A DNA stretch of 64,000 nucleotides, from positions 1 to 64,000 of the forward strand of contig DASYVT010000121.1 of NCBI GenBank assembly GCA_035936835.1, written 5' to 3'. The position numbers and the translations under genes were made by a program. A model generated the notes under the pieces. That model ran no database searches. It was not told the origin of the DNA and saw only the letters and a list, made by a program, of their open reading frames with translations. Source of the DNA: Candidatus Methylomirabilota bacterium. GTDB lineage: Bacteria > Methylomirabilota > Methylomirabilia > Rokubacteriales > CSP1-6. Each line of letters starts with the position of its first letter. Within the stretch, counting starts at the first letter, position 1. Positions 3,304-11,785 of the stretch are shown here, piece after piece.

Positions 3304-7500
<4,197 letters not shown>

Positions 7501-7524
7501 TCTGGGAATCTCCTTTTGCTAGGT

Positions 7525-7693
7525 TCGCCTCGTACGGCGGGGCCCCAGCCCCGCGACGCCCTGCGGCTCAGCCGGTCTTCTCCGCTCGCCTCGGACGGCG
7601 GGGCCCCAGCCCCGCGACGTCCTGCGGCTCACCCTGTCTTCTCCGCTCGCCTCGGACGGCGGGGCCCCAGCCCCGCGACGTCCTGCGGCTCAC
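7525..7693 (-). repeat. 61-bp tandem repeat (about 2.8 copies) with hairpins between rpoB and rpoC
   Basis: Units begin at 7525, 7586 and 7647, a strict 61-base period; the third is cut after about 47 bases. Units 2 and 3 are identical over those 47 bases, and unit 1 differs from unit 2 at about four positions. Each unit carries a perfect 7-bp stem GCGGGGC / GCCCCGC with a 4-base loop (first one at 7537-7554). The transcript therefore has three identical GC hairpins between the rpoB stop and the rpoC ribosome binding site. No open frame looks like a gene. Parts (GAGCCGCAGG, GAGGCGAG) resemble the spacer repeats at 13560, 23751, 28076 and 31375. Confidence 0.9.
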
Positions 7694-7701
7694 ACTACAA
7701 G

Positions 7702-11706
<4,005 letters not shown>

Positions 11707-11785
11707 ACACCCTCCGCGCCCCGACGGCATCTAGCCGCCGGGTGCTCAACCCCGCCGGACGGGCCGGGGCCACACGTTGGTCGAG

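Follow-up and report, generated by a model that had tools for sequence, protein, structure and literature searches.

The spacer between rpoB and rpoC in this genome very probably holds a small non-autonomous mobile element of Rokubacteria, a strong imperfect hairpin of ~60 bp that entered at the stop codon of rpoB no later than the common ancestor of the genus and now stands there as three head-to-tail copies. Comparison with related genomes shows an element that is mobile, structured, directional and multiplying in tandem. A mobile palindromic element had been put forward in the first-pass annotation of this DNA, and dispersed copies, empty sites, flanking duplications and family-wide covariation of the hairpin now support that proposal well.

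Within the window (the whole stretch of 64,000 nucleotides analysed), the spacer is filled by 2.8 copies of a 61-bp unit at 7525-7693 (Tandem Repeats Finder: 96% match, score 310), by far the top-scoring of the seven rows that the program returned, which bears out the first-pass description of almost three 61-base copies, each with a perfect 7-bp stem. On the transcript, the rpoB stop codon is followed by the array, then by AAGGAG and the rpoC start (Table 1). The GCTAGG repeats that flank the array make up a 6-bp match with a chance probability of ~2% as estimated from shuffles. The units are not fully identical, as unit 3 carries GGGCG/CGTAC and the two junctions differ (GACAGGGT versus GACCGGCT), and these differences argue against an assembly duplicate. 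The genomes are metagenome drafts, so array lengths may be misassembled. No intrinsic terminator or U-tract is present in the array, and no promoter-like site was seen there. The next-best match to the element model in the window reaches 24.5 bits, against 78, 76 and 67 for the three units; this match (E 0.001), at 8452-8496 (+) opposite the rpoB coding sequence, is probably due to chance. Elsewhere in the window, a GC-rich inverted repeat (GAAGAGGGGGGTCG/CGGCCCCCCTCTTC) at 2284-2317, just past the fusA start, may form a structure.

Table 1 Features of the rpoB-rpoC region (window coordinates) and hemW of the source species (coordinates on L002).
Feature	Position	Strand	Details
rpoB	7702..11730	-	TIGR02013
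GCTAGG (coding strand CCTAGC)	7701..7706	.	5' copy of probable target-site duplication; holds rpoB stop codon TAG
Whole inserted array	7524..7700	-	three head-to-tail elements between two GCTAGG repeats; sense to rpoB-rpoC
Element copy 1, first in transcript	7645..7694	-	inner hairpin 7659-7676; covariance model R1 78.2 bits, E 2.1e-17; RNA fold -32.8 kcal/mol
Element copy 2	7584..7633	-	inner hairpin 7598-7615; covariance model 75.6 bits, E 9.8e-17; RNA fold -32.7 kcal/mol
Element copy 3, more diverged (GGGCG/CGTAC)	7523..7572	-	inner hairpin 7537-7554; covariance model 66.7 bits, E 1.8e-14
GCTAGG	7518..7523	.	3' copy of probable target-site duplication
AAGGAG, Shine-Dalgarno-like sequence of rpoC	7510..7515	-	outside insertion; read from sequence; same motif in element-free relatives
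rpoC	3304..7500	-	TIGR02386
hemW	L002:986-2269	-	two in-frame copies, about 40 extra residues

In each unit of the array, the perfect 7-bp stem GCGGGGC-TGGG-GCCCCGC is prolonged outward by GGACG/CGTCC and a basal arm into a hairpin of ~49 nt. This stem is the tip of a bigger hairpin throughout the family, whose consensus is GCGMGCY-GCA-GGNCG-TC-GCGGGGC-TGGG-GCCCCGC-CGNCC-GA-GGCGMGC; classical terminal inverted repeats are absent from the element's outermost ends. When the family alignment is scored under this structure, 94.9% of cells pair, compared with 90.7% after shuffling and 34-49% in slid versions, and double-change cells number 40 versus 16.4 in shuffles. None of 500 shuffles reached the observed values for paired or double-change cells; these controls remove relatedness incompletely, and several independent pairs agree. 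The most variable pair, 2-27, stays paired as C-G, A-T, T-A or G-T (91% versus 46% shuffled). An internal motif reads GC/GC in some genera and GA/GA in others, with GA/GA in 80, GC/GC in 51 and a direct mixture in only one of 156 distinct copies, as would be expected if tandem G·A pairs replaced two G-C pairs. The covariation shows that a single-strand structure matters for the element, either as RNA or as single-stranded DNA.

A search of the genome and its relatives for the unit, a check proposed at first pass, recovered eight strong copies at four sites in the source genome (G000): three in the rpoB-rpoC spacer, two inside hemW, two between the genes for pyruvoyl-dependent arginine decarboxylase and agmatinase, and one between those for two subunits of a 2-oxoacid oxidoreductase. 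The element model gives a ninth match in this genome. The first-pass annotation had also entertained that there might be no copies anywhere else, and the dispersed copies refute this. Strict copies number 103 in G032, 36 in G002 and 26 in G028. A covariance model built from 58 copies matches 45 of 60 Rokubacteriales genomes, a few of them weakly, and no genome among 35 from the rest of the class, with top per-genome counts in this model search of at least 63. In a scan of a genome collection, all named records among the matches listed are Candidatus Rokubacteria. Phage or plasmid origin was rejected, with no match in IMG/VR (exact pattern), PLSDB or INPHARED, as was membership in a known RNA family, with no match in Rfam. 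No description of Rokubacteria repeats of this kind was found in the open-access literature, and the family, so far seen only in Rokubacteria, is apparently undescribed.

The element occupies the rpoB-rpoC spacer in all four genomes of the genus for which this spacer is complete, with three copies in the source genome and one each in G001, G002 and G004, and is absent from the spacer in the genomes of other genera examined. Element-free spacers in relatives are mostly 9-50 nt long, in line with the earlier statement that this gap is usually short, although the statement does not extend to three relatives with element-free spacers of 78-130 nt.

Insertion is demonstrated by empty sites in sister species, often accompanied by target duplications of 5-9 bp. 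At locus C34, G002 and G004 have the empty site GAATAG|GGAGAG, whereas the source genome has the filled version GAATAG-element-GAATAAGGAGAG. Copies at G001:C56 are bounded by CGCRCGRTA at a site that is empty in G000 and G004, the copy at G001:C130 is bounded by GGTAG at a site empty in G000, and the copy at G002:C1 is bounded by TCCAAG at a site empty in G000, G001, G004 and G006. Across 84 clean single copies, flanking repeats of at least 6 bp at the right place occur in 8, versus 1.4 expected and a maximum of 6 in 200 shuffles. This excess spans 6-9 bp, concerns a minority of copies and is also seen at several of the filled/empty pairs; most of the 84 single copies show no recognisable target duplication. 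Target duplication therefore appears real for some insertions, with a length that varies (5-9 bp). To our knowledge, Y1 transposition would not be expected to leave such duplications.

The number of copies at a site differs even among closely related species. At the four sites of the source genome, counts in G000 and its nearest sister G001 are 3/1, 2/1, 2/1 and 1/2. In the single rpoBC copy of G001, the 5' flank is that of G000 unit 1 and the body that of unit 3, with which the copy has GGGCG and the GGCGAA end in common; as it looks like a join of units 1 and 3, G001 may have lost units by recombination, and at rpoBC a loss in G001 and a gain in G000 are equally possible. Of the recent expansion proposed at first pass, a recent change in copy number is supported by the differences from G001 at all four sites; recent gain in the source genome is unproven.

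Neighbouring pairs less than 250 bp apart are head to tail in 35 of 35 cases, and none is inverted. Array periods are mostly 59-66 bp without preference for multiples of three, and frame preservation in arrays was accordingly rejected. One array in another species, L178, is a plain local duplication in which 107 bp, 5' flank included, are repeated, and another, L047, fits duplication by microhomology. Dimer junctions at hemW (G000) and at G001:C56 are near-identical, which suggests that dimers may move as one unit. Nested elements, with one copy in the loop of another and a recurrent junction GCGGGGCCGCAGTGCGAGCC, are found at L236, L238, L243, L057 and L177 (G028 and others), where the nesting yields larger hairpins. 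In G002 and G004, a dozen copies (L278-L290; for example L282 ~495-735) lie within a composite repeat of ~215 bp that contains further hairpins (CTCGGAGGGGGGCTCCGCCCCCC..., GCGCCGGCGAAGCCGGCGC); the composite begins directly after TAG stops, often with CTAG at both ends, and the filled/empty comparison yields an empty version of its site as well (in G004).

Placement of the element relative to genes is strongly directional. Counting independent sites, co-directional spacers hold 87 sense and 24 antisense insertions (p = 1.4e-9), with 22 further sites in divergent and 12 in convergent spacers; the genes around the sites were called by a simple codon-bias script, and individual starts are uncertain. 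Of 79 upstream sense genes, 55 have their stop codon at -30 to -13. In 14 cases the upstream stop is the TAG in the TAGTG that forms the edge of the element itself, and in 6 the upstream gene continues across the element and stops at +42. The orientation bias could stem from the insertion mechanism, through recognition of the stop-codon sequence, or from selection that removes antisense copies.

The sense strand of the element holds an 18-codon frame, GTG CGN GCY GCA GGN CGT CGC GGG GCT GGG GCC CCG CCG NCC GAG GCG MGC CTA TRA. Of the copies, 72% have its start codon at -12 (neighbouring offsets that were tested give 0-7%) and 42% a stop (TGA/TAA/TAG) at +42 (0-9% at adjacent positions); 80 of 239 carry both exactly. 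The first copy at rpoBC reads GTG TGA, so that its frame is broken. An ATG at +41 shares an open frame with the downstream gene in 9 of 24 cases, no clear excess over the third that chance alone would place in frame, and this ATG (in ATGA) was rejected as a general start for the downstream gene. The view that the +42 stop is a mere copy of the upstream stop was likewise rejected, as concordance is weak (23 versus 18 expected, p = 0.08). Within hemW, G000 and G004 have two copies and G001 and G002 one each, all of them in a single reading frame, which is that of the mini-ORF; G003 and G006 lack the element there. It is conceivable, and we offer this tentatively, that a MIRU-like, translation-transparent element arose independently in Rokubacteria, one that lies in sense at operon stops, combines a recognition hairpin with a mini-ORF that would pass ribosomes on from the preceding gene to the following one, and is mobilised by neither a RAYT nor a reverse transcriptase.

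The whole-genome search for a mobiliser covered the Y1 and reverse transcriptase families. Y1_Tnp (PF01797) is absent from G000, G002, G008, G012, G022, G028 and G032, the last being the richest genome with 103 copies, and occurs in only 9 of the 27 genera sampled, there chiefly in genomes with no or few copies of the element; a RAYT/Y1 transposase was rejected as mobiliser on these grounds. A reverse transcriptase (PF00078), missing from the element-rich genomes G008, G012, G028 and G032, was rejected because its occurrence does not correlate with that of the element. At no locus examined do element halves flank a gene, and among these loci an autonomous parent was rejected in turn, since long-range orphan pairs look like chance and short-range ones are nested elements. 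We infer that the mobiliser is best sought in a DDE-type or other transposase acting in trans.

The rpoBC array could in principle be the product of slippage or misassembly at this one locus, and the L178 and L047 arrays show that local duplication does occur in relatives. We regard this as highly improbable, given that the same element occurs at many unrelated sites and in many species, that the units differ among themselves while sisters carry a single copy, and that the G000 junction GGAGAAGACAGGGT does not occur on either side of the lone copy in G001. The element might instead be a conserved regulatory RNA hairpin (an attenuator, an RNase barrier or a coupling element) that is not mobile and that tunes RpoB:RpoC at this locus, as structure-level covariation, the strong sense bias, the tight placement behind stops and its retention at rpoBC in every genus member for which data exist could suggest. 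Covariation, however, is equally expected where a mobilising enzyme must recognise the hairpin, and presence in unrelated operons and in frame within hemW, absence from the rpoBC spacers of other genera, shifting copy numbers and empty sites among sisters, and the lack of a terminator, U-tract or Rfam match make this explanation unlikely. Pausing of ribosomes or polymerase and stabilisation of the rpoB 3' end had also been suggested at first pass; nothing specific to rpoBC was found about the element, since it recurs in many unrelated operons and even within hemW. At rpoBC a tolerated insertion is likelier than a dedicated regulator, because there is no terminator and rpoC retains its own ribosome-binding site; the likeliest effect would be that translational coupling is weakened by a longer and structured spacer, and any change in the RpoB:RpoC ratio would probably be mild.

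A further alternative is a REP element moved by a RAYT, in which a single-strand hairpin with a tetranucleotide foot is cut and pasted by TnpA_REP. The short imperfect palindrome with bulges and its G(T/C)(A/G)G foot fit this model, and the positions in operon spacers near gene 3' ends, the TAG stops supplied by the element and the intragenic copies are as in REPs (PMC3733652). The lack of Y1 transposases in element-rich genomes, the exclusively direct arrays and the target duplications at some insertions nonetheless speak against the mechanism, and only 19% of copies have a TAG at the foot. The element is not a standard REP-RAYT system, and we consider a RAYT-driven origin very unlikely. Under the preferred account of a non-autonomous mobile element, an enzyme would move it in trans into an AT-rich stop-codon region as its target, and tandem copies would arise when new insertions land beside old ones or through slippage and unequal recombination. 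Such insertions would be tolerated because they lie after a stop and before the ribosome-binding site of the next gene, and because the element is open in its reading frame.

These results add an apparently undescribed family of sub-100-bp mobile palindromes from an uncultured lineage. Its direct arrays, sense bias at stops and lack of Y1 or reverse transcriptase do not match the accepted REP-RAYT model, and the natural series of filled and empty sites, rpoB-rpoC included, could be used to test both the mobiliser and the effect on expression. They also caution that a hairpin in an essential operon of such a genome is not necessarily a regulator.

Among known repeats, REPs of the GTAG and CGTC superfamilies (Di Nocera 2013, PMC3733652) are likewise short imperfect palindromes in tens to hundreds of copies, located in operon spacers near gene 3' ends, sometimes supplying a stop codon, and with intragenic copies reported; the Rokubacteria element shares in-frame intragenic copies and, in the broad sense of REP, is a short palindrome dispersed in many, mostly extragenic, copies. 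It differs in its length of ~60 bp with a three-part stem, in its strong sense bias and flanking duplications, and in having been found only in Rokubacteriales. REPs occur mainly head to head or in alternating orientation (PMC3733652, PMC8266576), whereas our element forms head-to-tail arrays and not the inverted dimers of BIMEs. Compared with GTAG-REPs, the foot has only a consensus of G(T/C)(A/G)G, the TAG at -14 is infrequent and there is no Y1 transposase. CGTC-REPs, which have no dedicated transposase either, are defined by an unpaired CGTC tag, an 8-9 bp stem starting with AT and a CCA-type tail (PMC3733652); CGTC also precedes the inner stem of our element, but its CG is paired (GGNCG/CGNCC covariation) and the inner stem has 7 bp and starts with GC. 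MITEs resemble the element in being non-autonomous, palindromic and near genes, and apparently also in target duplications, and are unlike it in that the element has only 60 bp, no terminal inverted repeats at its very ends, no parent IS found at the loci examined and duplications that are variable or missing. Rickettsia palindromic elements (RPE), likened here by description, can also insert in frame in genes (compare hemW), whereas the Rokubacteria copies are mostly intergenic. MIRUs, again compared by description, are apparently mobile sub-100-bp units of operon spacers that form arrays between two genes of one operon, as in the senX3-regX3 spacer of M. tuberculosis H37Rv with its three 77-bp MIRUs (PMC4213456), and our element shows the same direct tandem units in sense orientation. 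MIRUs are reported to insert at start codons, where their internal ORF is coupled to the gene that follows (PMC12548453). A GTG...TRA mini-ORF next to stop and start codons is likewise present in many of the Rokubacteria copies, a parallel in coupling that is suggestive only, as no more than a third of copies have the exact mini-ORF; the element is, moreover, a strong covarying hairpin found at stops more than at starts. The element thus fails the tested features of strict REP-RAYT and CGTC-REP systems and fits a REP-like or MIRU-like description.
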